Below the pieces are notes generated by a model. That model was given only the letters and a program-made list of their open reading frames with translations, was not told where the DNA came from and made no database searches. Source: Halorubrum coriense DSM 10284 (GTDB lineage: Archaea; Halobacteriota; Halobacteria; Halobacteriales; Haloferacaceae). From it: a stretch of 60,679 bases of DNA. The position numbers and the translations under genes are program-made. The stretch spans positions 91,834 to 152,512 of the forward strand of contig NZ_AOJL01000036.1 in NCBI RefSeq assembly GCF_000337035.1, given 5' to 3'. Numbering within the stretch: the first letter of the stretch is position 1; each line of letters opens with the position of its first letter. Below are positions 25,794 to 45,895 of the stretch, piece by piece.

Positions 25794-26738
25794 TCAGTAC
25801 TCGATCGCGGCGGAGTAGCGGTTCAACACGACCACGAGCCCCGCCCCGGCCAGCGCGGCCAGCGCGAACCGCGGCGCGGCCGCCCGCCACGACTCGCCGC
25901 TCTCGGCGAGGACGGCCGTCGTCTCGGCGAGGGGCGCGCGGAGCGCGCCGACGACGAGGCTCACGAGGAAGGCCATCGTGGCGGCGCGGGCGCGGGCGAG
26001 GGCGTACCGGACGGCGTGCGCGATGGTGACGAGGCCGACGACGCCGCCGGCGCAGAACGCGGCGACGACCGGTGCGGTCTCGACGATGCCGTCCGTGCCG
26101 CGCCCGAGCGCGAACGCGATCGCGCCGTCGACGAACCGGCCGACCGTCCCCGCCATGTAGTCGTACTGGCCGAGGACGATCAGTAGCAGCGAGCCGGAGA
26201 TGCCCGGGAGGATCATCGCGCTGACCGCCACCGCGCCCGCGACGGCGACCACCGGCAGCGAGCTCGCCACCGCGGCGGAGGCGAACCCCGACGCGAGGAA
26301 GGCGAGCGCGAAGCCGCCGACCGCGGCCGCCTTCCGCGTCGGCGTCGCGAGGTCGACGTCGGCGAGGAGGACGCCCGCGCTCGCGGCGATCAGCCCGAAG
26401 AAGAACCCGTACGTCGCCACCGGCCGCGTCGTGAGCAGGTAGTCGACGCCGCTCAACACCGCGACGACCGCGGTGGCGATCCCGGCCCCGAGCGCGAGGA
26501 GGAAGCCGGCGTCGAGCTCGCGGACCGCGGTCAACGCGTCGTCGCGACCGCCCGAACGGAGCCCCGCGAGTATCCGCCGGAGCCGCGAGGGCGTCGCGGC
26601 CGTGATCGCGGCCACGAGCCGCTCGTAGACGCCGACGATGAGCGCGATGGTCCCGCCGGAGACGCCCGGCACGGCGTCGGCGCTCCCCATCGCGACGCCT
26701 TTGAGATAAATCGTCACCCACGCGCGGAGTCCGGCCAT
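25794..26738 (-). CDS. DUF368/PopT-family polyprenyl-phosphate transporter
   Basis: This 314-aa polytopic membrane protein (about eight to ten helices) has the DUF368 signature AMGSADAVPGVSGGTIALIVGVYERLVAAI and a repeated equivalent SAMILPGISGSLLLIVLGQYDY, the inverted-repeat PG(V/I)SG motifs. DUF368 proteins are now known in bacteria to return undecaprenyl phosphate across the membrane. It lies 42 nt downstream of aglB on the same strand, so co-transcription is likely. Recycling of dolichyl phosphate released by AglB is a reasonable inference for this gene. Confidence 0.88.
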   Translation of the reverse strand: MAGLRAWVTIYLKGVAMGSADAVPGVSGGTIALIVGVYERLVAAITAATPSRLRRILAGLRSGGRDDALTAVRELDAGFLLALGAGIATAVVAVLSGVDYLLTTRPVATYGFFFGLIAASAGVLLADVDLATPTRKAAAVGGFALAFLASGFASAAVASSLPVVAVAGAVAVSAMILPGISGSLLLIVLGQYDYMAGTVGRFVDGAIAFALGRGTDGIVETAPVVAAFCAGGVVGLVTIAHAVRYALARARAATMAFLVSLVVGALRAPLAETTAVLAESGESWRAAAPRFALAALAGAGLVVVLNRYSAAIEY

Positions 26739-26780: not shown

Positions 26781-29700
26781 TCAGGCCGCCGCGTCGACCG
26801 CGACCGTCAGATCGCTCGCCGCCGCCGCGGTCGGTTCGGTGCCGATCAGCGAGCCGGCGTCCGTCGAGTTCGTCGTGTCGCCGTCGTCGTCGACCGGACA
26901 CTCGGGGTCGCCGCTCGGGCAGTCGACGACCTCCTCTGCCAGTTCGACCGTCGCCGCCGCGTCGTCCGCGCCGACGACCTGACCCTCGGTCACCTCGACC
27001 TGCCCGACGCGCCGGATCGTGTACAGGTCGTCGCCGGTCGTCTGCGCGGTGGTGACGTTGTACGGTCCGGTCGCGCGGACGCTCGTGTTCGTGTACCCGT
27101 TCTCGGGGCCGAACTCGTCGTAGCCCGTCGTCGAGTACGGGAGCGTGAGCTCGAAGCTCCCGTCGTCGTCCGCGGTCGCGTACTGCGTGTACTCGAACGT
27201 CTGCCCGTTCGGCTTCCGGAGCTGGACGGTCGCCTCGACCTCTTGCCCGGGCGCAGCGCCCGAGCCCTCGACGGTCGCGCCGGGCACGCGTTCGAACGTC
27301 TTGACGAAGTCGTCGCCGAACGCGCCAAACAGCGACTCGCCGAACGTCGCCTGGAGGTCGACGCCGAACCGCTGGGCGAGGATCTGCGCCTGCTGGGCGT
27401 ACGGCGACCGGCCGGGGGCCTGCGTGGCGTGAACCAGCCGGTAGTGTTCGAGCGCGTCGACGCGCTCGGAGGGCACGCCCATGACGCCGCCGACCTGCGC
27501 GGAGCCGTCCTCCTCGACGTACGACCGCGCCGCGGAGAGGTTGTCGAACCGGCGGACCGCCTGTCCCTCGCTCGGGAGGACCTTGATCTCCACCTGCTCG
27601 CCCGCGTTCGTCTGTGCGGTCTGGCGCTCGTAGTCGAGCACGACCGGGTCCGGCTCGACCGCGCTCCCGTAGTGCTGGTAGAGCCGGATCATCTGGCTCT
27701 CGTGGTAGCGCTGGGTGCGCGTCTGGAGCGCGGCGCGGAGCCCGCCCCGCTGGCCCTGCGGGCCCTCGACGCGCTGGTAGAGCACCTCGTTGAAGTCGCG
27801 CACCGTCTCGTTGCCCGAGTAGAACGTCACCGGCGCGTTGAACTTGGAGTTCGGCGACGCCATCTGCCAGTCGACCATCACGTACCGGGTGTTCGCGCCC
27901 TCGGCGCTCTGGCTCGCGAGCACCTCGGCCGCCTCCTCCTCGCTCGGTGCGAGCAGGTAGTCCGCGGCTTCGCCCGCGTTCTGCTGGAACGGGTTGGCGT
28001 TCGGGATGCGCTCGGCGCGCGTGGTGATCCAGTGGCCGTAGTCCCACCACGACTGGACGCCGTACGCGCCCTCGGGGTACTCGAAGTCGCCGTCCGCGGG
28101 ACGCTCGTAGGTGCCGTACAGCTCCATGGGGTTGTCCGCGCCTTCGAGTTCGCCCGGCGTCGGCGTCTCGTCGTTCATCCACTGGAGGCTCTCGTCCCAC
28201 TGGACGACGCTGCCCGGTTGGCTGGAGTTGCCCGCCTGCCAGACCGGTGTGGCGACGCCGACGAGTGGGACGACGAGGACGGCGAGGACGGCCGCGAGGG
28301 TGAGCACCTGCCACCCCTCGATGTCGCGGACCGCGTCGAGGGAGGTGAGATCGAGGGCGTCGAGCGCGACCTGGAGGAAGTACGCCGTGCCGACCGCGAC
28401 GACGACGGCGAGGTAGTAGTTGAAGCGGCCCTGAGTGAACGCGGCGCTCCCGATGAACGCCGCCCACACGACGAAGTACAGCTCCTCGGCGTCGTACTCG
28501 ACGAGCAGCGTCGCGCCGACGAGGAGGGCTGCGGCGATGAGCAGGCCGATCACCTGCCAGTCGACGCCGACGACGCCGCCGATCGCCGAGTAGGCCTGTG
28601 GGACGGCGTAGACGGAGCCGACGACCGCGAGCGCGGCCGGGATGTACAGCGTGTGGTTGGTGTTATCCGACCGGTAGAGGGGACGGGCGACGATGTAGAG
28701 GACAGCAGCGAGCGCGAGGAAGAATGCGAGCCCGTACTGCGAGAGCACGAAGTCGGTGAACTGCGCGTTCTGGAGCGGGGGCTGGGCTTCGCCGATAGTA
28801 CGTGCGCCGGCCGACGCGCTGAACGCGACGGTGTTGAGGAGGCTCCCGATAACTGTCGACCACAGCGACGGAATCGCGAGCCAGACGACGCCGGCGGAGG
28901 CGAGCACGAGGCCGCCGACGGCTGCTGGGTAGCTGTCGGTACTGAGGTCACGCGTCTCCCACTGCCGGGCGAGCCACGCGAGGAAAACTGCGCCGAGTGC
29001 GACGACAAGCGGTGCGATAAGCTGTAAAAGTGAGTACTCGCTCGGTTCGAACGAAAACGTGTCGAGCGGGATGACCTGCATCACGCCCGCGACGCTCATC
29101 GCGACCGCGCCGACGAACGCGACCGGCTCCGGGCTCTTACCGTGGTACGTGTCGCTCGTGATCTTGACCGCGAGGAATATCCCGGTGAAGCCGACCATCA
29201 GGATACCCGGCTGCCACGTCCAGATGTAGAGCCCGAGCGCCACGCCGGCCGCGGCGGCGTACACGATGGGCTTGCGGAGCGCGTCCCAATCTCGGTCGAC
29301 GACGAGCTCCCACACCGGCTTCTCGCGTTTCGCGGCCCCGAGGGCGGCGAGGAACGCGAGGATAGCAGTGCTCTGGAAGAAAACCTCGGCCACGCTGTGG
29401 TCGGGGAAACCGACGAGGGTGTATCGGAGGAAAGTCCCGGAGAACAGCGCCAGCGTCACCGCACCGGCGAGGGCCGGCACGCGGTCGACGAACCGCCGCG
29501 CGATGAAGTACGTCGGTACCGCCACGAGCGCGCCGACGATGGGTGCCATGACGAGCATGACCTCCTCGGCGCTGCCCATGATCGGTCGGGCGATCCAGAT
29601 CCCGACAGCCATGATGTGGTCCCACAGCGTGCCGAACTGGCCGGCGTTCGTCCCGAACGGGAAGCCGGTCCAGACGTCGTACGGGAGCGTACTCGGCCAG

Positions 29701-29915
29701 TTTTCGAGCAGGTAGTTCGTCGTACGGAAGTGATACCACGCGTCGTTGCCGCGGAAGTACACCTCACCGTTCTGAATGAAGTTCCCGTACGAGCGCAGCC
29801 GCGTCCACAGCATGAACGCGACCACGCCGAGGAGGGCGGGAACGTGGTACCACCGCGCGAGGAGATCGGACGGGGACGAGTCCGATTCGTCCGGCGGATC
29901 GTTCGAATCGCTCAT
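26781..29915 (-). CDS. aglB: Dolichyl-phosphooligosaccharide-protein glycotransferase AglB
   Basis: This 1044-aa STT3-type oligosaccharyltransferase transfers lipid-linked glycan to Asn of S-layer and other surface proteins. The N-terminal ~600 residues hold about 13 membrane helices. The first external loop has FRGNDAWYHFRTTNYL with the catalytic Asp. The sequon-binding WWDYG is at about 623-627, followed by GHWITTRAERIPNANPFQ. The C-terminal ~420 residues form the extracellular domain with an acidic Asp/Thr tail. A TATA-like CTTATG is about 28 nt upstream. Neighbouring aglG-like and DUF368 genes complete the N-glycosylation context. Confidence 0.97.
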   Translation of the reverse strand: MSDSNDPPDESDSSPSDLLARWYHVPALLGVVAFMLWTRLRSYGNFIQNGEVYFRGNDAWYHFRTTNYLLENWPSTLPYDVWTGFPFGTNAGQFGTLWDHIMAVGIWIARPIMGSAEEVMLVMAPIVGALVAVPTYFIARRFVDRVPALAGAVTLALFSGTFLRYTLVGFPDHSVAEVFFQSTAILAFLAALGAAKREKPVWELVVDRDWDALRKPIVYAAAAGVALGLYIWTWQPGILMVGFTGIFLAVKITSDTYHGKSPEPVAFVGAVAMSVAGVMQVIPLDTFSFEPSEYSLLQLIAPLVVALGAVFLAWLARQWETRDLSTDSYPAAVGGLVLASAGVVWLAIPSLWSTVIGSLLNTVAFSASAGARTIGEAQPPLQNAQFTDFVLSQYGLAFFLALAAVLYIVARPLYRSDNTNHTLYIPAALAVVGSVYAVPQAYSAIGGVVGVDWQVIGLLIAAALLVGATLLVEYDAEELYFVVWAAFIGSAAFTQGRFNYYLAVVVAVGTAYFLQVALDALDLTSLDAVRDIEGWQVLTLAAVLAVLVVPLVGVATPVWQAGNSSQPGSVVQWDESLQWMNDETPTPGELEGADNPMELYGTYERPADGDFEYPEGAYGVQSWWDYGHWITTRAERIPNANPFQQNAGEAADYLLAPSEEEAAEVLASQSAEGANTRYVMVDWQMASPNSKFNAPVTFYSGNETVRDFNEVLYQRVEGPQGQRGGLRAALQTRTQRYHESQMIRLYQHYGSAVEPDPVVLDYERQTAQTNAGEQVEIKVLPSEGQAVRRFDNLSAARSYVEEDGSAQVGGVMGVPSERVDALEHYRLVHATQAPGRSPYAQQAQILAQRFGVDLQATFGESLFGAFGDDFVKTFERVPGATVEGSGAAPGQEVEATVQLRKPNGQTFEYTQYATADDDGSFELTLPYSTTGYDEFGPENGYTNTSVRATGPYNVTTAQTTGDDLYTIRRVGQVEVTEGQVVGADDAAATVELAEEVVDCPSGDPECPVDDDGDTTNSTDAGSLIGTEPTAAAASDLTVAVDAAA

Positions 29916-30060: not shown

Positions 30061-30978
30061 GTGAAGGTCTCTGTCGTCGTCTGTACGTACACGCTGGACA
30101 TGTACGAACACTTCCGCGAGGCGGCCGACAGCGTCCTCGCGCAGACGCACGACGATGTCGAACTCGTCGTGGTCGTCGACGGGACGCCGGAGGTGTACGA
30201 GCGCGTCGCAGAGAACTACGGCGACCGCGAGGACGCGGTGATCGCGTGTAACGACGAGAACGTGGGGCTGCTGGCGAGTCGGAACCGCGGTGCGGAGCTG
30301 GCCTCCGGCGACGTAGTCGCGTTCATCGACGACGACGCGATTGCGGACGAGGCGTGGGCCGAGCGGCTGGTTCGCGCCTACGAGGAGGAGGACGCTGTCG
30401 CGGCCGGCGGGAAGATGACGCCCGAGTGGGTCGCGGGGAAGCCGTCGTTTCTTCCCGAAGAGTTCTATTGGTTAGTCGGCGTTACCCATCGCGGATTTGC
30501 GGACGGGCCAGGCGAGGTGCGGAACACCTTCGGGTCGAATATCTCGTTCCGGACGGACGTGTTCGCAGAGTTGGGCGGGTTCGATGTCGACATCGGCGGG
30601 CGGAAGGGTGACAAGAATCTTCAGGGGGGAGAGACTGAGCTGTGTGCCCGGATGCGGGAAGAGTACGGGCAGGGCGTGTGGTACGACCCGGAAGCCGAGG
30701 TGGCACACAAGGTGTTCGAGTACCGGACAGACTTCTGGTGGTTGGTTGACCGCGCGTTTTGGCAGGGATACTCGAAGCGGGCGATGGAGTCGCTTGTCGA
30801 CGACGGCGGGAGAGAAGAGGGGGCGTTTCTGTATCGATTGATACTAGACTTTGTTCCGAAGCGCCTGAGAAACACTCTCAGTACACCCTCTCGACCGAAG
30901 CTAGAACGGCTGATCTGTCTCTTCTGCTTTACTTTCACTGTTGGGTGTGGCTACTTGTATGCCGTCGTAAGCCGCTAA
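30061..30978 (+). CDS. aglG: AglG-like glucosyl-dolichyl-phosphate glucuronosyltransferase (GT2)
   Basis: This 305-aa GT2 enzyme starts KVSVVVCTYTLDMYEHFREAADSVLAQTH, with the DxD at FIDDD (residues ~89-92), NVGLLASRNRGAELASGD, and the acceptor block GDKNLQGGETELCARM. A C-terminal hydrophobic segment (LICLFCFTFTVGCGYLYAVV) anchors it to the membrane. The pattern matches haloarchaeal AglG/AglI, which add hexuronic acid to dolichyl-phosphate glycans. The donor UDP-GlcA could come from the aglM-like gene at 44573. Base composition shifts to AT-rich in the last ~150 bp, marking the left edge of the variable cassette. The GTG start was chosen because it fits both the family N-terminus and the promoter spacing. 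Confidence 0.88.
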   Translation: MKVSVVVCTYTLDMYEHFREAADSVLAQTHDDVELVVVVDGTPEVYERVAENYGDREDAVIACNDENVGLLASRNRGAELASGDVVAFIDDDAIADEAWAERLVRAYEEEDAVAAGGKMTPEWVAGKPSFLPEEFYWLVGVTHRGFADGPGEVRNTFGSNISFRTDVFAELGGFDVDIGGRKGDKNLQGGETELCARMREEYGQGVWYDPEAEVAHKVFEYRTDFWWLVDRAFWQGYSKRAMESLVDDGGREEGAFLYRLILDFVPKRLRNTLSTPSRPKLERLICLFCFTFTVGCGYLYAVVSR

Positions 30979-31089
30979 CGTAGAATGACTTAGCAGATCT
31001 GTTTTGAATACGATTATGTGCATTTTCCATTTCCTCCAGTCATCATACTTCACCGCTGGTTTCTTGATTCGATATCCTGTAGTGCGTAT

Positions 31090-32259
31090 ATGGACGATCA
31101 CGTGGATGTCGCTGAACCAATCATTGGCGATGAAGAGCGGGAAAACCTGAGAAATGTTCTCGATTCTGGTCGGTTTTTACAGGGTGAGTTTGTTGAGGAA
31201 TTCGAAAAAAAATGGGCAAATTACGTAGGTACAAAAAACGCAGTTGCCGTTACTAACGGAACAGCGGCAATCCAACTATCTCTGAAAGCACTGGGATTGG
31301 AGCCCGGTGACGAGGTTATCGTTCCATCACTTACTTTCGGATCGACAGCTACCGCTGTGGTCCACCAAGCCGGTGTTCCGGTGTTCGCTGACATCGACCG
31401 AGAACTCTACACCCTCGATCATACGGATCTTGAGCGGTGCCTCTCCGACGAGACATTCGCGATTATGCCTGTCCATTTATATGGCCACCCTGCGGAGATG
31501 GACGAGATCCGAGCGTTCGCGGATGAACACGATCTATATGTCATCGAGGACGCGGCACAGGCACACGGAGCATCATACAAGAACGACATCGTTGGTTCGA
31601 TCGGTGATGTGGGCTGTTTCTCATTCTACGCCACGAAAAACATAACCACAGGTGAGGGCGGCATCGTGACGACAGATAACGACGCAGTCGCAGAACAGCT
31701 TCGGATGCTTCGAAGTCATGGGATGGCTAACCGAGACCAGCACGTGACTCTCGGGTACAACTACCGAATGAGTGAACTGAATGGGGCTATTGGGACAGCA
31801 CAAATTGACCGGCTTAACCGGTTTAATGAGCGAAGAAAGGAGATTAGTGGGAGACTGCTTGATGCGCTTGACGACCTGAACTGGCTTCAGCCAGCTACGG
31901 TACGCGATTACGTCGAACACGCGTACTTTTGGGCACCCTTTGAAGTTCAGACGGAAAAGATTGGCATGTCCGGAAAAGAAGTTTGGGAGAATCTTCGCGA
32001 ACAGGGTGTCGAGACGCGGCACAGATACAATGACCCTCTCTACGATCAGCCGGTCTTCGCTCGTCACCGTGGGTTCAATTCGGACTTCCCTTGGAGCGCA
32101 AACCCGAATGACCACGACTATGACCTCTCCCTCCCTAACGTAGAGGCCGTTGTCGGGAGCATGATCGGACTTCCGAATCATCCCAACCTCACTGAAGAGG
32201 AAATTCAGTACGTCATCGAAACCGTCAGAGAATTCGACACCGTCGCACAGGTGAGATAG
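31090..32259 (+). CDS. DegT/DnrJ/EryC1/StrS-family sugar aminotransferase
   Basis: This 389-aa PLP enzyme converts a keto-sugar nucleotide to an amino sugar. Fold-type I signatures are VTNGTAAIQLSLKALGLEPGDEVIVPSLTFGSTATAV, VIEDAAQAHGASY, and the Schiff-base lysine in FYATKNITTGEGG (Lys183). The ATG at 31090 starts MDDHVDVAEPIIGDEE, the normal N-terminus; an in-frame longer ORF upstream is unlikely to be coding. It is the first gene of the AT-rich glycan cassette. Together with the adjacent SDR and N-formyltransferase it suggests synthesis of an N-formylamino sugar. The exact sugar cannot be read from sequence. Confidence 0.9.
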   Translation: MDDHVDVAEPIIGDEERENLRNVLDSGRFLQGEFVEEFEKKWANYVGTKNAVAVTNGTAAIQLSLKALGLEPGDEVIVPSLTFGSTATAVVHQAGVPVFADIDRELYTLDHTDLERCLSDETFAIMPVHLYGHPAEMDEIRAFADEHDLYVIEDAAQAHGASYKNDIVGSIGDVGCFSFYATKNITTGEGGIVTTDNDAVAEQLRMLRSHGMANRDQHVTLGYNYRMSELNGAIGTAQIDRLNRFNERRKEISGRLLDALDDLNWLQPATVRDYVEHAYFWAPFEVQTEKIGMSGKEVWENLREQGVETRHRYNDPLYDQPVFARHRGFNSDFPWSANPNDHDYDLSLPNVEAVVGSMIGLPNHPNLTEEEIQYVIETVREFDTVAQVR

Positions 32260-32386
32260 GACATTTGTTGCTGGATTGACGACTTAGTTCGGATTGACGA
32301 GAGTGGATCTATTCCAGCCGCGGTTCAAAACTCCGGGGAGTCGAATGTCATAACAGATTTAATCTGTCGATTGGAAGTCACCGAAC

Positions 32387-33379
32387 GTGAAAGTACTCCT
32401 AACAGGTGGTGCCGGTTACATCGGCAACTACGTCGTTGAAGAAGTACTCGACAACGGCCATGAGGTCCGGGTTCTCGACTCGATGCTCTGGGGAGATAAT
32501 GCACTTGAATCCCTCCGCAAAAACGAGCGGTTGGAAGTCCGCAAGGGCGATATCCGGCACATCGAGGATCTCTCATACGCCGTAGAGGGATGCGACGCCG
32601 TGATTCACCTCGCAGGGATCGTCGGCGACCCCGCCTGCGGTGTCAACGAGCAAGCGACGCAAGCAGTGAATGTAGAGGCCACCAAATCACTCGTCGAAGT
32701 CTGTAAGCTCCACGATATTCAGCGTCTCGTTTTCGCGTCGACCTGTTCGGTGTACGGAGCCAGCCAGCTTATGGAGTTAAACGAGGGCTCGTACCTCAAT
32801 CCGCTCTCGTTGTACGCCGAGTCGAAGATCGATTCCGAGGAAATCATTCTCCACGAGACGCACGATATGTTCTCCGACAACGAGATCACGCCGACGATCC
32901 TTCGGCTCGGTACGATCTTCGGATGGTCTCGCCGGATGCGTTTCGATCTCGTTGTCAATATATTAACTGCGAAAGCCGTCTTAGAGGGGGATATTCCGGT
33001 TTTCGGTGGGGAGCAGTACCGGCCACTCGTCCACGTTCACGACGCCGCCCGAGCGTTCGCGGCTGTGCTAGAAGCCGATACAGAGAAAGTCGCGCATCAG
33101 ACGTTCAACGTCGGCGACAACGATCTGAACTACCAGATCAAAAAGGTAGGACAGATCGTCGAAGATAACGTCGACGGTGCTGAGGTTCGGTTCGTCGAAC
33201 ACAAGGAAGACGAGCGAACGTATCGCGTGAGCTTCGACAAGATCAACCATATTCTCGGCTGGGAGGCGAAACACGATATCGCAGACGGGGTGCAAGAGAT
33301 TAAAGAATGGATGGAAGAGGAGAACATCACTAACTACGAGAAAGACAACTTCAGGAACTCTGAGTATCCCTACATGTAG
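32387..33379 (+). CDS. NAD-dependent epimerase/dehydratase (extended SDR)
   Basis: This 330-aa protein opens with the NAD site VLLTGGAGYIGNYVVEEV, then HLAGIVGDPACGVN, the catalytic TCSVYG with YAESK (Tyr143, Lys147), and PLVHVHDAARAF. These are features of nucleotide-sugar epimerases/dehydratases of the WcaG type found in O-antigen-like clusters. It starts at GTG 32387, about 127 nt after the aminotransferase. Whether it is the 4,6-dehydratase supplying the keto sugar or a later epimerase/reductase is open. Base composition is AT-richer than the core genome. Confidence 0.87.
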   Translation: MKVLLTGGAGYIGNYVVEEVLDNGHEVRVLDSMLWGDNALESLRKNERLEVRKGDIRHIEDLSYAVEGCDAVIHLAGIVGDPACGVNEQATQAVNVEATKSLVEVCKLHDIQRLVFASTCSVYGASQLMELNEGSYLNPLSLYAESKIDSEEIILHETHDMFSDNEITPTILRLGTIFGWSRRMRFDLVVNILTAKAVLEGDIPVFGGEQYRPLVHVHDAARAFAAVLEADTEKVAHQTFNVGDNDLNYQIKKVGQIVEDNVDGAEVRFVEHKEDERTYRVSFDKINHILGWEAKHDIADGVQEIKEWMEEENITNYEKDNFRNSEYPYM

Positions 33380-33387
33380 ATCTATAT

Positions 33388-34122
33388 TTATTCACCGTTT
33401 TTATGTGTGTAATTTGGAACTTTTTTTGGTTCAGCACTATTTTCTACTTCATCCGACTCTGACTCAATATGTACTTCTAAATAATATTTTTTACCGTTCT
33501 TTTTGAAGTAAGCGTTATTGTACGGAGGGAATGTGAGTGCCCGGAGCCTATCTATGAAGTCACCGATCCTGACTTTTTTGTCGAGATTTAACTCCCATAG
33601 ATCCGTGAAATCCCGCTTGTAATGGTACGTTCCTTCGTTCAACTGTTGTTCAATAGTACCTACGTCACTCTCGCGAATCTGGTCCCACATCCGCTTGAAC
33701 TGCTCAACCTGTGTATCTTCGAGACGCTCGTACAAATCTCGTGCATCATCTTTGGGATCAATATGAACTTTTTGTCGATCTATAATCGGGCCTTGGTCCA
33801 CATCAGACGTCATATAATGTATTGAAGTACCTGCTGGATTATTTTCGATGATACTCCAAACGTTGGGGTTTGCCCCTCTGTTGTATGGAAGATACGATTT
33901 ATGAAGATTTATCGCACCGTATTCAGGTACCTCTAGAATCTCTTCTGGGACAATATGTCTATATCCTACAGAAAGAATAAGATCTGGTTCGATATCCTTT
34001 AGTATATTCAGTTGTTCATTTTCTGTAAATATGCCCTGTACCTTCGTATCATCACGGCTTACTAGCCAATCGTAGATACGTTCCCCTACATCATTAATTC
34101 CCAGAAATGCTATTTCTATCAT
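33388..34122 (-). CDS. Formyltransferase-family protein (probable sugar N-formyltransferase)
   Basis: This 244-aa protein has the methionyl-tRNA formyltransferase fold with the catalytic set complete: AINLHKSYLPYNRGANPNVWSI (Asn72, His74) and MTSDVDQGPII (Asp109). N10-formyl-tetrahydrofolate or an archaeal equivalent would be the donor. Archaea do not formylate initiator Met-tRNA, and the neighbours are sugar-modifying, so an amino-sugar N-formyltransferase is the best reading. The lack of an OB-fold C-terminal domain also fits sugar formyltransferases. It is convergent with the SDR gene, 8 nt apart. Base composition is strongly AT-rich. Confidence 0.85.
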   Translation of the reverse strand: MIEIAFLGINDVGERIYDWLVSRDDTKVQGIFTENEQLNILKDIEPDLILSVGYRHIVPEEILEVPEYGAINLHKSYLPYNRGANPNVWSIIENNPAGTSIHYMTSDVDQGPIIDRQKVHIDPKDDARDLYERLEDTQVEQFKRMWDQIRESDVGTIEQQLNEGTYHYKRDFTDLWELNLDKKVRIGDFIDRLRALTFPPYNNAYFKKNGKKYYLEVHIESESDEVENSAEPKKVPNYTHKNGE

Positions 34123-34203: not shown

Positions 34204-35298
34204 GTGAAGGTACTGTTAATTTCTAATAAGGCCCCTCACGAGACAGGAGGGCGAGCAGAAAAAGTAGAGACAAGGCAGCGTCTACTTGAACAAAGAGGGT
34301 GGGAAGTAATAATAGGGTATGTACCTCAACCGTATCTCTATTCTTTCTTACCCAGTCTGTTTAGATGTTGGCGGCGTGCCAATCAAGAGGATGTTGACGT
34401 GATACACTCAATAAGTAATCCGATGCACCTCCACGTGATAGGGTTGCTAATATCTCTCTTGACACGCTTACCTTGGCTCGCTGAATTCCGTGACCCTATG
34501 GTAAGAAACCCTGATAGGGAAGACGGTACATTCGAAATGTATCTTGCGAAGATTATCGAGAGCCTCACAGTACGTTTCGCTAACCGCGTAATTTGGATGG
34601 ACGGGATACAAATGCAAAAAAAGTACTTTATAGAGACTTATCCAAACCTCGCCGAAAAACAGTTCAAAGAACTCCCCTTCCTCGGTTTTGAGGCGGGAAA
34701 ATTTGAGTCTGTACCGACTGAAAATTATGAAGCTTCTACTATTACTTATGCCGGCTCTTTTTACGAAGGATGGATAGAACCGTATGAACTCCTCAGAGGC
34801 TTTTCGGATTATGTGAATAAAAACGAACCTGAGGGAGACGAACTAACCCTACAATTCTATGGTGACTGGAGTGATGAGTACCAAGGAGCAGTGGAAAAAC
34901 TCAACCTCGTTGAGTTTGTTAATACGTACAATTTTGTCCCTCATGAGAAGATCATACCTCTGCTCAAAGGATCCGACATTGTTGTATATATAGGTGGTAA
35001 GGATCCGGAGAATAGACTCAGCGTTCCATCGAAAATTTGGGATTACATGGGCGCGAAGACGCCGATACTCGCCGTCGTAGATCCCTCCTTCCGTGTCGCC
35101 CAACTCATCGAAGAGAACGGCTTGGGGGTTGTGGTTCACCCCGATAACAGGGAGGAGATAGCCGATGCTATCGAAAGAATGCTTTCGGGGGAATTCCAGT
35201 ATGTGTCCAATAAAACCACTTTTGACGAGTTCAGCAGGTCGCACAAGATGGATGAATTAGCAGAGGTCCTTGACTCCGTGTCTGAAAATAATCATTGA
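34204..35298 (+). CDS. GT4-type glycosyltransferase, copy 1
   Basis: This 364-aa protein starts VLLISNKAPHETGGRAEKVETRQRLLEQRGWEV, a GT-B N-terminal half, and later has TYAGSFYEGWIEPY (~181-194), FYGDWSDEY and the donor-side SDIVVYIGGKDPENRLSVPSKIWDYMGAKTPILAV. These fit GT4/GT1 glycosyltransferases building dolichyl-linked glycans. No membrane helix is clear. The GTG at 34204 gives the expected N-terminus. It is closely related to the gene at 36373-37491 on the other strand: both share WLAEFRDP, GIQM, LPFLGF/IPYLGF and TYAGSFY(E/D)GWIEPY. Confidence 0.85.
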   Translation: MKVLLISNKAPHETGGRAEKVETRQRLLEQRGWEVIIGYVPQPYLYSFLPSLFRCWRRANQEDVDVIHSISNPMHLHVIGLLISLLTRLPWLAEFRDPMVRNPDREDGTFEMYLAKIIESLTVRFANRVIWMDGIQMQKKYFIETYPNLAEKQFKELPFLGFEAGKFESVPTENYEASTITYAGSFYEGWIEPYELLRGFSDYVNKNEPEGDELTLQFYGDWSDEYQGAVEKLNLVEFVNTYNFVPHEKIIPLLKGSDIVVYIGGKDPENRLSVPSKIWDYMGAKTPILAVVDPSFRVAQLIEENGLGVVVHPDNREEIADAIERMLSGEFQYVSNKTTFDEFSRSHKMDELAEVLDSVSENNH

Positions 35299-35523: not shown

Positions 35524-36339
35524 CTAACTACTTTTAAAGTAGTATGCTTGTGGTTTTATTGGGTGTTTTTTTACAATCTCATACGAGACATCATGGCTGT
35601 CAAATTGGTCTAATACAGTGTTTTCTCCATCGCCAAGACGGTCAGAGTGAATCTCTACGATCCCTGCGAAACTTTCTATATCTGCAGACAGCAAATCTGC
35701 GATAACCTCATCCTCAGCGCCTTCAATATCAAGCTTCACAAATGGCTTTTTAATGTTGTGGGATTTAAATATATCAGATAAAGATTTGCTATCACGTTCC
35801 ACCGTCTCTGTGAACTTTTCCGTGTCTTCTCCCGGTGAAAGTGTGTCTCTGGGGGATCCGGTCGTTGATCTATCTTCGTGAAATGTAACAGAACCAGATT
35901 CACCGGCAACAATTGTATCCAAGATCCTAACCCGAGACGAGTCAAAATCATTCAGTTCCGAATTCTGTTTGAGAACTGAACGATTATACTGGTTCGGCTC
36001 AAATACAAGAATCGGAAGGTCTGGGTTCATTCTTCCCAGGATGACAGTATAGAGCCCAAAGTGAGCACCAACGTCTAATGCTGCGTCATGATCAGAGAGT
36101 TCGAAATACGAAAGAGGTATGTCTTCTAATGCTGTACGGCCGCGCTCAACGTCGATACAATCGTACTGCCTCAAAAAAGTCGTCGTATCCTGATACCCAT
36201 ACACGAACTCTGCCCCTGAACAGTTATATCGGAACTGATTAGTTCCCCGAAGTTGATTTACTTTAACAAGGACACTTGCTCCAAGTCTACCGATTGGTCT
36301 TGGAAGTTTCTGACCAATTTCATAAAGCATGGTAATCAT
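35524..36339 (-). CDS. FkbM-family SAM-dependent methyltransferase
   Basis: This 271-aa protein has the SAM-binding motif AALDVGAHFGLYTVILG (~86-101), then VFEPNQYNRSVLKQN and the FkbM hallmark FVKLDIEGAEDEVIADL (~200-215). FkbM enzymes O-methylate sugars or natural products; here methylation of the surface glycan is likely from context. The ATG at 36339 (MITMLYE) or the one at 36330 can be used. It lies 33 nt downstream of GT4 copy 2 on the same strand, so the two probably form an operon. AT-rich composition indicates recent acquisition. Confidence 0.87.
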   Translation of the reverse strand: MITMLYEIGQKLPRPIGRLGASVLVKVNQLRGTNQFRYNCSGAEFVYGYQDTTTFLRQYDCIDVERGRTALEDIPLSYFELSDHDAALDVGAHFGLYTVILGRMNPDLPILVFEPNQYNRSVLKQNSELNDFDSSRVRILDTIVAGESGSVTFHEDRSTTGSPRDTLSPGEDTEKFTETVERDSKSLSDIFKSHNIKKPFVKLDIEGAEDEVIADLLSADIESFAGIVEIHSDRLGDGENTVLDQFDSHDVSYEIVKKHPIKPQAYYFKSS

Positions 36340-36372: not shown

Positions 36373-37491
36373 CTATCTCTGATTCTTTTTTGTATATCGT
36401 TCACCTTCGGAAACCGTATTGAGGATATGTGTATACTCTTCCATAGCTTGGCGGCTATCGAATCTATTCTTCATATATCTATTTGGATCGTAATTAAAAT
36501 CGGCTGTACGAATGGTGTGGATCGCATCGGCTACCGAATCTGGCTCTTTCGGATGGGCGGTGACTCCAACATTTTCTTTTCTTATGAACTCTCCAGCACG
36601 AAAAGTCGGATCAATTACACCCAAGATTGGTGATTCGGCGGCAATGTAATCTGCCATTTTCAACGAGATATTTTGTCGGTTGCGCGGATCATTACCGCCG
36701 ACGTACAGAAGCAGATGAGACTTCTTTAGAATAGGGATAATTTCATTGTATGGCACTGGGTCATATGTAGTCACGATATCCTCTAGATTCTCTTCACACA
36801 CTTTCTGCTGGTATTCCTCTTTCCAGTCACCGTAGAACTGAGTCTGTATTCCTCCACTACCGTGACGCCTCACGTACTCGCTCAAACCCTCTAAGAATCC
36901 GTATGGCTCGATCCATCCGTCATAGAAAGAGCCCGCGTATGTAATTGTGAAATTATCAAACTTTTCGGTGCTTATCCTGTTAAATTTCTCAACTTCAACA
37001 CCACCAAATCCTAAATAAGGTATCTTATAGAATTTTGATTCGGGTAGATCTGGATAAGATTGCTTGAAGTGATTGTCATTCATCTGAATGCCATCCCACC
37101 ATACTACTTGATCTGTAGATATAACAACACGTTCTTCCAAAATGCGTCTCTGGAGATGAGAGTAGGATCCAGTGTCTACATGAACATTTGTCGCTAGAGG
37201 ATCACGGAATTCTGCCAACCATGGCTCCCCTGTGATTTTCTTCAATATGTATCCAAGAGCGTGTAACTCAGGAGGGCTACAGTGAGTCACCATCACATCG
37301 ATATCATCTGAACGTACACGGCGAGTGAGCTTAGGAACCTCTTTTAGGATGCCGGAGATCGATGGATCGGGAACATACCCTATTTCGACTTCCCACCCTT
37401 GCTCGCGCAGCAACTCTTTGTTCGCCTCTTTCTCGGGTCCGCCCCCCATCTCACGTGTACGATTATTAGAGATCATTAGCACCCGATTCAT
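36373..37491 (-). CDS. GT4-type glycosyltransferase, copy 2
   Basis: This is a 372-aa GT-B enzyme with VLMISNNRTREMGGGPEKEANKELLREQGWEVEIGYV at the N-terminus, PWLAEFRDP, TYAGSFYDGWIEPYGFL and LLLYVGGNDPRNRQNISLKMADYIAAESPILGVID. It is a paralogue of the gene at 34204. Each probably adds a distinct sugar to the same lipid-linked glycan. A TATA-like TATAAAAAG on the minus strand (37532-37542) precedes the ATG at 37491, and the IS6 element begins only about 20 bp beyond it. The FkbM gene follows in the same direction. Confidence 0.85.
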   Translation of the reverse strand: MNRVLMISNNRTREMGGGPEKEANKELLREQGWEVEIGYVPDPSISGILKEVPKLTRRVRSDDIDVMVTHCSPPELHALGYILKKITGEPWLAEFRDPLATNVHVDTGSYSHLQRRILEERVVISTDQVVWWDGIQMNDNHFKQSYPDLPESKFYKIPYLGFGGVEVEKFNRISTEKFDNFTITYAGSFYDGWIEPYGFLEGLSEYVRRHGSGGIQTQFYGDWKEEYQQKVCEENLEDIVTTYDPVPYNEIIPILKKSHLLLYVGGNDPRNRQNISLKMADYIAAESPILGVIDPTFRAGEFIRKENVGVTAHPKEPDSVADAIHTIRTADFNYDPNRYMKNRFDSRQAMEEYTHILNTVSEGERYTKKNQR

Positions 37492-37616: not shown

Positions 37617-38252
37617 ATGCCCGAAAACGACCGCCTCAGCGGCTGTTTAGAAGAGATCAACTTAGAGTTTATGGAGCGAGAAGCAACACCGAAACTGTTG
37701 ATGAAGCTCAGTATTCAGCTCCATCTGGCTGGATTATCGCTTTCGAATACTGTTTCTTTTCTTGAGGTATTTGGTGTTGATCGGGTTCGATCTACCGTTC
37801 ATAACTGGGTTCACAAGGCTGATTTACAGCCGAAACCAGGGCAGAGCCCGAATCACGTTGCGGTTGATAAAACTGTGATTCAACTTGATGATGAACAATA
37901 TTGGCTGTACGCTGCCGTCGATCCAGATTCGAACGATCTGCTACACACAAAGCTTGAACCGACGAGAACAAACGTGATCGCGGATCAGTTTTTCGCGGAA
38001 CTCCGCGAAAAACACGACGTGGACGACGCGATCTTTCTTGTTGATGGTGCGGTTCCACTTCACCGAGCATGTGAAAAACATGGCCTCAATTTCAGATACG
38101 AACGACATGGAAATCGGAACAGCATCGAACGTATCTTTCGTGAGATAAAACGCAGAACTACCAGTTTCTCAAACTGTTTTAGCAACGCCAAAGCAGAAAC
38201 TGCTGACGAGTGGCTGAGATCGTTCGCGTTCGCATGGAATCAGCTTATCTGA
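37617..38252 (+). CDS. IS6-family DDE transposase
   Basis: This 211-aa transposase is of the normal haloarchaeal IS6 length. An N-terminal HTH (LMKLSIQLHLAGLSLSNTVSFLEVFGVDRVRSTVHNWVHK) precedes the catalytic core: first Asp in HVAVDKTVIQL, second in FLVDGAVPLHRACEKHGL, and Glu in RNSIERIFREIKRRT. All three DDE positions are intact, so the element may be active. The coding region ends inside the right inverted repeat. Confidence 0.93.
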   Translation: MPENDRLSGCLEEINLEFMEREATPKLLMKLSIQLHLAGLSLSNTVSFLEVFGVDRVRSTVHNWVHKADLQPKPGQSPNHVAVDKTVIQLDDEQYWLYAAVDPDSNDLLHTKLEPTRTNVIADQFFAELREKHDVDDAIFLVDGAVPLHRACEKHGLNFRYERHGNRNSIERIFREIKRRTTSFSNCFSNAKAETADEWLRSFAFAWNQLI

Positions 38253-38326: not shown

Positions 38327-39676
38327 ATGACTGATATTGTTCTGATAACAATTGATTCTTTGCGTCACGATCATCTAGGTAGCTACAATTATAACAGAGA
38401 TACATCTCCAAACATAGACGATATCGCAGAAAGATCCCATCGATTCTCCAACGTCTTCTCACATGCAGGGATGACACGGGCCTCTTTCCCTACCATTCTT
38501 AGCTCGTCCTATACCAATATGTACGGAGGCTACGAAAGAATAACTGAAGGAAGAGCGCTCATTTCGGAGGTGCTGAAGGAAGAGGACTCCTCTACCGCGG
38601 GATTTCATTCAAATTTGTTTCTCTGTGCGGACTTCGGGTATGAGCGCGGCTTTGATACCTTCTACGACTCTAAGACCGACCCAGGTCTCACTGCGAAGCT
38701 CAGACAGCTCATTAAAACGAACCTCGATCAAGACAGCCTCTTGTATGGGGTTCTACAGAGTCTCTACGACGCGACAGAAAAGAACGCCGGCCTCAACGTC
38801 GGTTCTAGCTATGTGAAGGCAGACGCGATCACCGATCGATCGATTGAATGGGTAAATCAGACCGATTCTGACGATCGGTTCCTCTGGACGCATTATATGG
38901 ACGTACATCATCCATACGTACCACCGGAGGAGTACCAGCTTCAGTTCCGCGACTCGCCGATAAGCGATAGACGGTCAATCAAGCTCCGGAGGAAGATGTT
39001 GGAGTCGCCCGACGAGATTACCCGAGAGGAACGACAAGATCTCATTGACCTGTACGACGCCGAGATACGGTTTACCGATCACGAGGTAGGACGCCTCGTC
39101 GATGAGGTGAAGGATTCGTGGGGCGAAGATACGATCGTGATGATCACCGCGGACCATGGTGAAGAGTTCTATGAACACGGGCAGTACAGCCACAACACTG
39201 TCCATGATGAAGGGATCCACGTACCGCTAATAATCGACGACGGTACCACGGGAGAACACGATGAGATAGTTGGCCTCGTAGATATTGCTCCCACGATCGC
39301 GGAGTACGCTGGGTGTGACATCCCAGACAATTTCTATGGTAATAGCCTCATCTCGGTTGTTACTAACGGTATCTGGGAACGAGACCACGTTATCGGGGAT
39401 TGGGGAGGATCTGACGGCGAACCGGATCGGTTCTTCTACCGCTCCCACGATTGGAAGTATATAAAAAAGCAAGACAACGAACAATTATACGATCTAACTA
39501 CAGACCCGGAAGAGAAGAACGACATCAGAGGTGAAAATCCGCCTGCCTTGTCTGAGATCCGATCTAAGATAGAGGAGCACCGGAAACTGGTCTCTGAAAC
39601 GTCGATGGACGCAGGCGACGTGGAAATGGACGAAGTGGTTCAAGACCGTCTAGAGAAACTCGGATACAAGACTTGA
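38327..39676 (+). CDS. Sulfatase/alkaline-phosphatase-superfamily protein
   Basis: This 449-aa protein begins DIVLITIDSLRHDHLGSYNYNRDTSPNIDDIAERSHRFSNVFSH, the metal-binding N-terminus of the sulfatase fold, and later has VMITADHGEEFYEHGQYSHNTVHDEGIHVPLII with the second metal site. The catalytic position reads GMTRASFPTILSS, lacking the C/S-x-P-x-R formylglycine motif, so a Ser or Thr may serve as nucleophile as in phospho- or sulfo-transferases of this superfamily. Glycan decoration is likely from context. It overlaps no gene and is followed 4 nt later by the flippase, indicating an operon. Confidence 0.82.
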   Translation: MTDIVLITIDSLRHDHLGSYNYNRDTSPNIDDIAERSHRFSNVFSHAGMTRASFPTILSSSYTNMYGGYERITEGRALISEVLKEEDSSTAGFHSNLFLCADFGYERGFDTFYDSKTDPGLTAKLRQLIKTNLDQDSLLYGVLQSLYDATEKNAGLNVGSSYVKADAITDRSIEWVNQTDSDDRFLWTHYMDVHHPYVPPEEYQLQFRDSPISDRRSIKLRRKMLESPDEITREERQDLIDLYDAEIRFTDHEVGRLVDEVKDSWGEDTIVMITADHGEEFYEHGQYSHNTVHDEGIHVPLIIDDGTTGEHDEIVGLVDIAPTIAEYAGCDIPDNFYGNSLISVVTNGIWERDHVIGDWGGSDGEPDRFFYRSHDWKYIKKQDNEQLYDLTTDPEEKNDIRGENPPALSEIRSKIEEHRKLVSETSMDAGDVEMDEVVQDRLEKLGYKT

Positions 39677-39680
39677 CGAG

Positions 39681-41099
39681 ATGGAGCTCGGACAGAAATC
39701 GGTTATACATTTTGTATCGCAGTTTGCTGCTACGATAGCAGGATTCTTGGCGACGATTTTTCTCGCTCGCGTTCTAGGAGCCGATACCTTGGGAACCTAC
39801 TTTCTGGTGATTGCCGTGTTGACGTGGGTAAAGATGTTCTCCACGATGGGGATTACCAGATCGGTGAGCAAGCGCATCAGCGAAACCGACGAACCGGGTG
39901 AATTCCTCACGGCTGGGCTTCTCATACAGATCACAAGCGTCGTCATCGTGTCGTTGTCTATTCTACTGTTTCGGGGACCGCTACAGGAATACACGGGGTA
40001 TAGTAATATCGAAGTTCTAATTGTACTACTACTGTCAGGTTCGTTCTTCGGATTCATAACCTCGCTGTTGGTTGGTGAGGGCTTAGCGCACGTCGCAGGC
40101 GCCCTCAATCCTCTTGATCGAATTATTCGGACGATCGTACAACTTACCCTCGTCGTCTTGGGATTCGAACTACTCGGGTTATTTCTGGGGTATATAGTAG
40201 CGAGCGTCATCGCAGCGACCGTCGGGATCTACTTTGTCGCCGCCAAGCTCGAATATCCTGAGAAGCGTCACTTCATATCAATCTGGTCGTACGCGAAGTA
40301 TTCGTGGATTGGCAACTTTAGCAACCGAAGTCTCGCGTCGATGGATACGATCGTCCTCGGCCTCTTCGTCACGTCCGATCTGATCGGGATTTACGAAATC
40401 GCATGGAACGTGGCTTCGGTTCTCGCCGTGTTCGGTGTGTCAATCAATCAAACACTGTTCCCCGAGATAAGTAGTCTGGACGAAGAGGCATCTGAAGAGG
40501 TCGCTGATCTGGCACAGACTGGTGTCGCTTACTCCGGTCTCTTTCTCATTCCTGGTCTCATTGGTGGTTCAGTTCTTGGGGAGGTCATTTTGTCCGTGTA
40601 CAGTGCCGAGTTCCGTCAGGGATACGTGGTACTGGTTGTACTGATACTCGCTCGACTTATTTCGACGTATAAGTCCCAGTTCACCAACGTCATCGATGCG
40701 ATCAACAGACCGGACGTTACCTTCAGGGTTGACGGCGTTTTCGTGACTGCTAATATCGTTCTTAATATCGTTCTCGTGTACCTCTATGGTTGGATCGGCG
40801 CGGCGGTCGCTACGGCTGTTTCGGCTCTGCTCGGTGCCCTACTTTCCTATGATGCGCTTGTCCGACTGACAGAATTTAGATTTCCGATTGCTGAGGTCTC
40901 AAAACAGGTGGTTTCCGCATTCATTATGGGAATATTCATTTATGCAGGTGCGGAGTTCATAGCGTACGAACTCGTTCCAAGTCTCTTCTTGATACCGATT
41001 GGAGCGCTAATATATTTCGCGGTATTGTTGGTAATCTCTCGCCGGTTCAGAACAATCGTTCGAAATAATGCCCCGGACAGAGTCCATCCATTCAATTAG
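39681..41099 (+). CDS. Oligosaccharide flippase (Wzx/AglR-type, MOP superfamily)
   Basis: This 472-aa polytopic protein has about 12-14 hydrophobic segments. The N-terminus SVIHFVSQFAATIAGFLATIFLARVLGADTLGTYFLVIAVLTWVKM is typical of the polysaccharide biosynthesis/MOP family. It is expected to move dolichyl-linked glycans to the outer face for AglB. It is coupled to the sulfatase-like gene with a 4-nt gap. The downstream SDR gene is convergent. It marks the right end of the most AT-rich cassette. Confidence 0.88.
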   Translation: MELGQKSVIHFVSQFAATIAGFLATIFLARVLGADTLGTYFLVIAVLTWVKMFSTMGITRSVSKRISETDEPGEFLTAGLLIQITSVVIVSLSILLFRGPLQEYTGYSNIEVLIVLLLSGSFFGFITSLLVGEGLAHVAGALNPLDRIIRTIVQLTLVVLGFELLGLFLGYIVASVIAATVGIYFVAAKLEYPEKRHFISIWSYAKYSWIGNFSNRSLASMDTIVLGLFVTSDLIGIYEIAWNVASVLAVFGVSINQTLFPEISSLDEEASEEVADLAQTGVAYSGLFLIPGLIGGSVLGEVILSVYSAEFRQGYVVLVVLILARLISTYKSQFTNVIDAINRPDVTFRVDGVFVTANIVLNIVLVYLYGWIGAAVATAVSALLGALLSYDALVRLTEFRFPIAEVSKQVVSAFIMGIFIYAGAEFIAYELVPSLFLIPIGALIYFAVLLVISRRFRTIVRNNAPDRVHPFN

Positions 41100-41113: not shown

Positions 41114-42091
41114 TCAACGAAGGATTTCTCGTACAGAGGATTTAATATTCTCAGACGGTTTCCAATTGAGTTTCTGTGCTGCTCTTGAGATATCCACCTC
41201 AAACTGGTCGACTACAGTTTCGCTTGAACGTGGGTTGTTAACCAACTGGATGTCAGTTTCTGCGCCTAACTCCTCTTCGGCTTCCTTCCGCACAATCTCC
41301 GCAACCTCCATCACGCTCATGTCTTCCTCTCCAGCAATTTCGTACGTCTCGGTTCCGGTTTCGCCGCGCGCTAGCTGCTCTAACAGCCGCTCCATGCTCC
41401 GGATGTGTGCCCGTGCCACGTCTTTCACGTGAACGAAATTACGTGCTTGGGTTCCGGGCTCGTACACCGTTAGCGTCGCGTCAGCGAGTGCTCGGTTGAC
41501 GAAGAAGTTGATAACGGTTGGCTTGTCGATACTCATATCACCGACAACATGTTCACCGTACAGATTCGAGATAAGAAACAAATGCGCCGGGAACGCGCCG
41601 TCCGCGAAGGTTTGAATGGATCGCTCACCAAGTAGCTTCGTTCGGCCGTACCAGTTCAGCGGGTCTCGCGGCTGGTCGGCGGTAATCGGGAATTCCTCTG
41701 GGTCACCAAGTACGGCCATACTGAACGGGAACACTAACCCAGCGCCTGTCTTCCGACAGAACCATGCCACGTTGTTTGTTCCCGTCACGTTCACGTCATA
41801 TGCCAGATCCGGGTTTTCTTCGCAGTCGTCAACTCCGCTCAGTGCCGCGAGGTGACAGACCACGTCCGCACCCGCAAGCGCGTCCTCCAACCGCCCACGG
41901 TTTCTGATATCCACGTGTTCGATCTCGATATCGCCGATCGCGTCGACCTGCCCACGATACATATTATCGATTGCGATCAACTCCCAATCGGGGTGAGTCT
42001 CACGCAGCTCGACGATCATCCGACTTCCGATGTATCCAGCCGCACCTGTGACCGCTATTGTCGGGTTCGTCCCGGAATCTGACTCACTCAT
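41114..42091 (-). CDS. NAD-dependent epimerase/dehydratase (extended SDR)
   Basis: This 325-aa protein has TIAVTGAAGYIGSRMIVELRE at its N-terminus, HLAALSGVDDCEENPDLAYDVNVTGTNNV, the catalytic NWYGRTKLLGE (Tyr148, Lys152) and NFVHVKDVARAHI. It is a nucleotide-sugar SDR of unassigned specificity. Its ATG overlaps the end of the SqdB-like gene by 8 bp, so it is the second gene of that operon and probably acts on the same sugar pathway. Base composition is intermediate between cassette and core. Confidence 0.87.
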   Translation of the reverse strand: MSESDSGTNPTIAVTGAAGYIGSRMIVELRETHPDWELIAIDNMYRGQVDAIGDIEIEHVDIRNRGRLEDALAGADVVCHLAALSGVDDCEENPDLAYDVNVTGTNNVAWFCRKTGAGLVFPFSMAVLGDPEEFPITADQPRDPLNWYGRTKLLGERSIQTFADGAFPAHLFLISNLYGEHVVGDMSIDKPTVINFFVNRALADATLTVYEPGTQARNFVHVKDVARAHIRSMERLLEQLARGETGTETYEIAGEEDMSVMEVAEIVRKEAEEELGAETDIQLVNNPRSSETVVDQFEVDISRAAQKLNWKPSENIKSSVREILR

Positions 42092-44405: not shown

Positions 44406-44572
44406 CCCTGGCATTGCCGCTCCGGGCGACGTGGAGGGCTGGCCGCGCCGAGCGAACACGCACACGGCCCGCCAGATCCCATCGCCTGCCACGGCGAACA
44501 GTAGAGAGATGATCTGTCAGTCCGTCATCGATCCGACCCTTCTTGACCGCACCCCGCGAATTACGGCCCGAC

Positions 44573-45895
44573 ATGGATCTCTCTATCGTCGGTAGCGGCT
44601 ACGTCGGCACGACGGTCGCCGCCTGCTTCGCCGATTTGGGCCACGACGTGGTGAACATCGATATCGACGAGTCGGTCGTCGAGACGATCAACGCCGGCGA
44701 GGCCCCGATCCACGAGGAGGGACTCTCGGAGCTCATCGCCGAGCATGCCGGACCAGACGGAACCGGCCGCCTTCAGGCGACGACCGACTACGCGGCCGTC
44801 CGCGATACCGAGGTAACGTTCCTCTGTCTCCCCACCCCGCAGAAAGACGACGGCAGCATCGACCTGTCGATCACCGAGGCAGGCGCGAGCCAACTCGGGA
44901 AAACGCTCGCCGACAAGGCCGACTGGCACACAGTCGTCGTCAAGAGCACGGTCGTCCCCGGCTCGACGGCGGACGCTATCACGCCGATTCTTGAAAGAGA
45001 AAGCGATAAAAGGGTCGGCGAGGGGTTCGGCGTCGGGATGAACCCGGAGTTCCTGCGCGAGGGGACGGCGGTCCACGACTTCCTGAACCCGGACAAGGTC
45101 GTCCTCGGCGCGGACGACGACCGCGCGCTCGGAGACATGCGCGACGTGTTCGCCCCGCTCGTCGAGGGGACGGACGCGCCGGTCGTCGAGACCGACACGC
45201 GCACCGCCGAGATGATCAAGTACGCCAACAACGGCTTCCTCGCGGCGAAGATCAGCCTCATCAACGACATCGGAAATATCTGTAAGGAGTTCGGCGTCGA
45301 CGCCTACGAGGTCGCCGACGCGATCGGCCTCGACGACCGGATCAGCGAGCAGTTCCTCCAGAGCGGCGTGGGGTGGGGCGGCAGCTGTTTCCCGAAAGAC
45401 GTCGCCGCGATCGTCGCGGCCGCCGAGGACACCGGCTACGACCCAGCAGTGCTCAACGCCGTGGTCGAGGTCAACGACCGCCAGCCGGAGCGGTTGGTCG
45501 AGCTGCTGGCCGGCCACCTTGTCGAGCGTCGCGAGAGCGGATTCGACGGGGCCGAAATCGCCGTCCTCGGCCTCGCGTTCAAGCCCGGCACCGACGACAT
45601 GCGGAACTCCCGCGCGATTCCGGTTATCGACGACCTCCAGGAGCGCGGCGCGACTGTCACCGCCTACGACCCGGTCGCGGCCGACAACGCCCCGAACTAC
45701 GTCGACGACGTGACCTACGCGGAGTCGGCCGCGGCGGCGCTCGACGGTGCCGACGGCGCGGTCGTCGTCACCGACTGGGACGAGTTCGCGGCGCTCGACG
45801 AGGAGTTCGACGCGATGGCGACCCCGATCGTCGTCGACGGCCGACGAATCGTCGAGCGCCGCGACGGGATCACCTACGAGGGACTGACCTGGTGA
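44573..45895 (+). CDS. aglM: UDP-glucose 6-dehydrogenase (AglM-like)
   Basis: This 440-aa enzyme oxidises UDP-glucose to UDP-glucuronate with NAD. It shows the N-terminal Rossmann motif [41 protein letters not shown], the central helix [24 protein letters not shown], the catalytic Cys in [12 protein letters not shown] (Cys272), and C-terminal [16 protein letters not shown]. The length is normal. UDP-GlcA is the donor expected for the AglG-like enzyme at 30061. The ATG at 44573 begins directly at the fold. It is convergent with glmS. Confidence 0.95.

Follow-up and report, generated by a model that had tools for sequence, protein, structure and literature searches.

The question raised by three neighbouring genes of the haloarchaeon Halorubrum coriense DSM 10284 is whether an amino sugar of its surface glycan is formylated and, if so, by which route. 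The genes encode a predicted sugar aminotransferase (AT), a short-chain dehydrogenase/reductase (SDR1) and a formyltransferase (FT), and lie as open, complete reading frames at positions 31090-34122 of the stretch analysed here (the window: 60,679 nucleotides, contig NZ_AOJL01000036.1, positions 91,834-152,512 of the forward strand; gene coordinates follow window numbering). A sequence-only reading had proposed a pathway to an N-formylated amino sugar from these genes, and was aware of no characterised haloarchaeal route. The first part stands, in that a predicted sugar formyltransferase does lie beside an aminotransferase and an SDR, but the novelty was overstated: 5-N-formyl-legionaminic acid has been reported in the S-layer N-glycan of Halorubrum sp. 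PV6, with HrrPV6_1050 named as putative N-formyltransferase (Zaretsky 2018, PMC6137143; Kandiba 2012), and a sugar N-formyltransferase has been noted on the haloarchaeal plasmid pHILL-c2 (PMC11431627). In the literature found, N-formyl-legionaminic acid is the only archaeal N-formyl sugar in surface glycans, and a survey of Haloferax clusters contains nothing on formylation. Haloarchaeal surface glycans are already known to carry N-formyl sugars, and the genes described here seem to encode another and shorter route; that it leads to an N-formylated amino sugar for an AglB-dependent surface N-glycan is, on balance, the probable answer.

A predicted sugar N-formyltransferase

FT (33388..34122, reverse strand) matches Formyl_trans_N with 80.4 bits and carries the complete catalytic set listed by the sequence-only reading, with N72, H74 and D109 being invariant across 20 aligned relatives. 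It also has the C-terminal dimerisation domain PF18216 (N_formyltrans_C; 63.9 bits versus a cut-off of 25.8). The comparison with sugar formyltransferase structures that had been suggested points the same way: in a Foldseek search with the AlphaFold model (pLDDT 89), ranks 1-17 were all sugar N-formyltransferases (4nv1 with E 3e-22 and TM 0.83; Rv3404c; VioF), methionyl-tRNA formyltransferase only appearing below them, and VIA-align gave the Francisella 4-N-formyltransferase a Z of 26.8 (217 residues aligned), versus about 22 for Fmt. The two other PF00551 genes of the genome are a PurN-PurH fusion and PurU, no fmt being found among them, and FolD is encoded, so that 10-formyl-tetrahydrofolate can be made. 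Because of its domain PF18216, its sugar formyltransferase fold, the separate housekeeping formyltransferases and the presence of FolD, the best reading of FT is that of a sugar N-formyltransferase; the sugar substrate, which had also been predicted earlier, is thus well supported by sequence and model.

As to which sugar, FT shares its fold, domains and catalytic triad with the dTDP-4-amino-4,6-dideoxyglucose (dTDP-Qui4N) N-formyltransferases Rv3404c, VioF and Francisella 4nv1 (about 27-31% identity over most of its length), but its N-terminal part is shorter and its score with the best NCBIfam model, that for dTDP-4-amino-4,6-dideoxyglucose formyltransferase (NF005755), is 139.2 bits, under the equivalog cut-off of 238. 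RmlB (TIGR01181) had no match at E <= 1e-60 in the H. coriense genome, while the control search in Haloferax volcanii was positive; dTDP-Qui4N is therefore an unlikely substrate, and a route through it was set aside.

The PV6 pathway is the closest precedent, coming from the same genus and from an AglB-linked cluster with a PLP (pyridoxal phosphate) aminotransferase, an SDR and a putative N-formyltransferase. There, however, LegI (NeuB), LegG and LegF make a nine-carbon sugar, whereas no NeuB (PF03102) was found in the H. coriense genome (a draft, rated 100% complete) and SDR1 does not qualify as a LegB (103.9 bits versus a cut-off of 475). Because both NeuB and RmlB are absent, the route in H. 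coriense must differ from that in PV6. The relatives of FT do point towards nonulosonates: among 391 haloarchaeal genomes, a close FT (E below 1e-60) is present in 18 besides H. coriense, and in 17 of these NeuB lies within 10 kb of it. The sole exception is genome G089, from another family, which lacks NeuB as well and has the same cassette, with AT, SDR1, FT and the glycosyltransferase GT4 in the same relative order and on the same strands (identities to the window of 73%, 85%, 69% and 61%, respectively), plus one gene between AT and SDR1. This extra gene has no Pfam match, and its sequence looks like that of the sulfatase superfamily.

In the FT tree, whose bootstrap is not fully settled, the sequences from the window and from G089 group in a single clade (100/97), which joins six nanohaloarchaeal FTs (none of the six loci with NeuB) and one NeuB-linked row (100/93), this group in turn nesting in a mainly NeuB-linked clade of 29 rows (99/89). 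The nanohaloarchaeal relatives (L077, L078, L080, L088, L091 and L092) are 41-51% identical to FT. The FT locus of one of them, strain SG9 (L088), also has a gene 70% identical to the UDP-sulfoquinovose synthase-like gene at 42084-43232 of the window, which suggests, as far as sequence can tell, an exchange of glycan genes between haloarchaea and nanohaloarchaea. Phage and viral collections contained only distant FTs (about 25-35% identity), so there is no halovirus link. On the Halorubrum lacusprofundi plasmid pR1SE2 (L207, NZ_KX906370.1, 14819-16732) an FT 54% identical to that of the window and a GT4 homologue (42%) are in divergent orientation; sulfatase-like fragments and genes for cytosine methyltransferases lie nearby, and the pR1SE literature searched does not mention a formyltransferase.

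Predicted oxidation and amination at C4

SDR1 (32387..33379, forward strand) is an NAD-dependent sugar-nucleotide SDR (PF01370, Epimerase, 143 bits) in which the Tyr-Lys pair is intact, as had been read from the sequence (Y143 and K147). Its motif STCSVYG is kept in all 30 homologues, as SSCSVYG in three of them, and lacks the Asp/Glu of the T-D-E-V-Y-G type; the role of an NDP-sugar 4,6-dehydratase, which needs an acid at this position, is therefore rejected. When its profile was searched against the PDB, Cj1427 of Campylobacter jejuni (solved as 6vo6 and 6vo8) came first (6vo6, 192.7 bits; the next match had 130.1 bits), and Cj1427 chains also took ranks 1-4 in Foldseek with the SDR1 model, which is only moderately confident (pLDDT 77). 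Both proteins have the segment RMRxDLxVN and both lack Asp/Glu at the dehydratase position, although their identity is only about 28%. Cj1427 is a ping-pong C4-dehydrogenase that acts on GDP-heptose and re-oxidises its bound NADH with 2-oxoglutarate, and its product passes to epimerases and reductases, not to an aminotransferase (PMC10680097). From sequence and model, SDR1 probably acts as a C4-dehydrogenase rather than as a 4,6-dehydratase, and by analogy direct oxidation at C4, with amination afterwards, is likely. In other haloarchaea, SDR1 homologues of about 46% identity carry an N-terminal CBS-domain extension ahead of the SDR domain (L051 14078-15511, L052 16562-17986, L054 669-2153). 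A fusion of SDR and acyltransferase was considered for the frames of ~470-550 residues in this group and discarded, as those scanned have N-terminal CBS domains, and they provide no Rosetta-stone evidence.

AT (31090..32259, forward strand) belongs to the DegT/DnrJ/EryC1/StrS sugar aminotransferases (PF01041, 375.8 bits). A GTG at 31018 would allow a longer reading frame, but homologues align from the Met at 31090, from which its residues are numbered. The PLP lysine noted earlier, K183, is in place and is invariant in 10 orthologues. The best PDB matches of AT include C4 enzymes (perosamine synthetase, ArnB) as well as C3 enzymes (QdtB, WbpE), which counts against a firm assignment of the amination to C4.

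Taken together, the proposed route would start with the oxidation of a nucleotide sugar at C4 by SDR1, without dehydration, after which AT would turn the 4-keto group into an amine and FT would move a formyl group from 10-formyl-tetrahydrofolate onto that amine. GT4 (34204..35298, forward strand), the candidate for transfer of the amino sugar, would then attach the formamido sugar to the dolichol-linked glycan, which AglB would transfer to protein. If glutamate were the donor of AT, its use would release 2-oxoglutarate, which could feed SDR1. The logic of C4 oxidation, amination and N-formylation is that of ArnA and ArnB, which make UDP-Ara4N and its N-formyl form. ArnA, however, is a fusion and decarboxylates UDP-glucuronate, whereas SDR1 is a separate protein with a motif that lacks the acidic residue.

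The AT-SDR1 pair and the gene that follows it

Close SDR1 orthologues (80-91%) occur in only 8 of the 391 genomes, the window included, and in all eight an AT orthologue lies beside SDR1, either directly or with one gene between. GT4 is kept in seven of these loci, the eighth being on a truncated contig. What changes is the gene just after SDR1, which is FT in two (the window and G089), a FemAB/GNAT acyltransferase in four (G232, G268, G021 and G078), an ATP-grasp protein in one (G220) and a glycosyltransferase in one (G350, where GT4 follows SDR1 and a two-domain ArnA/Fmt-like formyltransferase lies 2.4 kb off). The FemAB/GNAT genes start only a few bases from where SDR1 ends, and PF13480 was found in the G232 copy. 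When the window was compared with G232 or G268 by blastn, homology stopped at 33378, within the SDR1 stop codon, and restarted inside GT4. In GC content FT is the lowest of the block (39.7%, with AT at 52% and SDR1 at 54%), which fits a separate acquisition of FT.

This exchange of the adjacent gene provides the strongest evidence, from gene order, that the product of AT and SDR1 would be an amine for capping by different enzymes. AT and SDR1, usually with GT4, would then form a laterally mobile core with an exchangeable N-acylating enzyme beside it. A more specific version, which we put forward tentatively and with less confidence than the route itself, is that the product of the AT-SDR1-GT4 module is a 4-amino-4-deoxy (not 6-deoxy) sugar, formed through direct oxidation and amination at C4, the N-acyl cap (formyl, a FemAB/GNAT acyl or aminoacyl group, or an ATP-grasp amide) being set by the gene after SDR1. 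Nor is the pairing confined to archaea, since on a Klebsiella variicola plasmid a DegT aminotransferase adjoins an SDR1 homologue of 41% identity. In relatives, sulfatase-superfamily-like proteins of two families (about 320 and 421 residues) are present beside AT and SDR1 in some loci and absent from others (L037 10964-11926, L196 9127-10086, L198 9634-10623, L193 12205-13470).

Alternative explanations

For FT itself, two other assignments have to be weighed against that of an enzyme for the AT/SDR1 sugar. A housekeeping role in purine or tRNA metabolism, which would have undone the earlier proposal, has in its favour that the Formyl_trans_N fold is common to both kinds of enzyme, but PurN-PurH and PurU are distinct genes, PF18216 is present, and FT scores far under the housekeeping cut-offs (fmt, 84.2 versus 201.5 bits; PurN, 52.7 versus 150.1 bits); domain architecture, scores and genomic context make this role scarcely credible, and it is rejected. 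A part in a legionaminic or pseudaminic acid pathway, as in PV6, would agree with the proximity of NeuB to most close FTs and with the 36% identity between the catalytic domains of FT and PseJ of Anoxybacillus kamchatkensis. The PseJ match, however, ends near residue 172-200, ahead of the PF18216 domain of FT, and NeuB is missing both from H. coriense and from G089, which has the same cassette. In spite of the NeuB linkage of its relatives, a nonulosonate route in H. coriense is thus rejected as very unlikely.

The other two alternatives leave FT a sugar enzyme and question its partners, and several observations count on their side. FT could be an independently mobile glycan-modifying gene that hitch-hiked between SDR1 and GT4 and acts on another amino sugar, the AT/SDR1 sugar being unformylated or otherwise capped. 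FT is indeed convergent with SDR1 on the opposite strand, its GC content is much below that of AT and SDR1, most AT/SDR1 loci have no FT of this type, and because the pR1SE2 FT lies by a GT4 homologue on a plasmid in which no close SDR1 was found, FT could use another amino sugar. The exchange of the gene after SDR1 is also weakened by the small number of genomes, only eight, and by acyltransferases being common in glycan clusters. Nevertheless, the grouping AT-SDR1-FT-GT4 is kept in G089, and elsewhere the same slot is filled by other candidate N-acylating enzymes, so that hitch-hiking of FT is, in our view, unlikely. About equally improbable is that SDR1 is a nucleotide-sugar 4-epimerase, with AT receiving its keto substrate from a second SDR of the cluster (SDR2, 41114-42091) or from an enzyme elsewhere in the genome; the sugar would still be N-formylated. 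SDR1 does also score as GalE-like (122.8 bits, below the cut-off), and its fold matches include many 4-epimerases. Furthermore, in G123 (L200, 9352-12832) an AT orthologue (71%) adjoins two SDR2-type genes with no SDR1, and AT may therefore be able to use the keto product of a different SDR. Against this reading, Cj1427 is clearly the top match of SDR1 by both profile and fold, and the pairing of AT with SDR1 is strict across the eight genomes. C4 oxidation by SDR1, amination by AT and formylation by FT would remain the preferred sequence of events.

Genomic surroundings

The three genes lie in an Agl N-glycosylation cluster, with AglB, AglG and AglM all present, so the adjacency and AglB linkage described earlier are borne out, but they are not one operon, because FT is on the opposite strand and convergent with SDR1. 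Upstream are the oligosaccharyltransferase AglB (26781..29915, reverse strand; STT3, AglB_core-like and AglB_L1 domains) and an AglG-type glucosyl-dolichyl phosphate glucuronosyltransferase (about 30061..30978, forward strand; NCBIfam equivalog NF041394, 524.9 bits, cut-off 440). A polyprenyl-phosphate transporter-like gene (25794-26738) adjoins aglB, in the same arrangement as in L193 and L048, and possibly has a role in dolichyl-phosphate recycling.

Beyond GT4 follow an FkbM-type methyltransferase (35524..36339, reverse strand) with a counterpart in G232, a second glycosyltransferase (GTx, 36373..37491, reverse strand; a GT4 paralogue, 42%), a sulfatase-family protein (38327..39676, forward strand; PF00884, 145.9 bits), a Wzx-like flippase (39681..41099, forward strand; PF01943, 66.7 bits), SDR2, the UDP-sulfoquinovose synthase-like gene and the UDP-glucose 6-dehydrogenase AglM (44543..45895, forward strand; NCBIfam equivalog NF041297, 748.6 bits, cut-off 670). 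Between GTx and the sulfatase gene lies an IS6-family transposase (37617-38252), with none at that point in G232 and G268 (L193, L194). In this genome of 72% GC, the GC content of the island genes is 40-54%, versus about 72% in the flanks, and the cassette beside the N-glycosylation genes is read as a horizontally acquired gene set.

Implications

The cassette points to a second, simpler N-formyl route that does without nonulosonate chemistry. If the more specific version with the exchangeable cap is correct, it would be a cassette mechanism by which an archaeal surface glycan is varied, and the sugar with the formyl cap would be one so far undescribed in Archaea. The natural swaps of the capping gene provide matched sets of strains, in which the amino-sugar core should persist while the N-acyl group differs. 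This would make the locus a testable system for the diversification of archaeal surface glycans, which could matter both for recognition, whether by viruses or by plasmid vesicles, and for mating.

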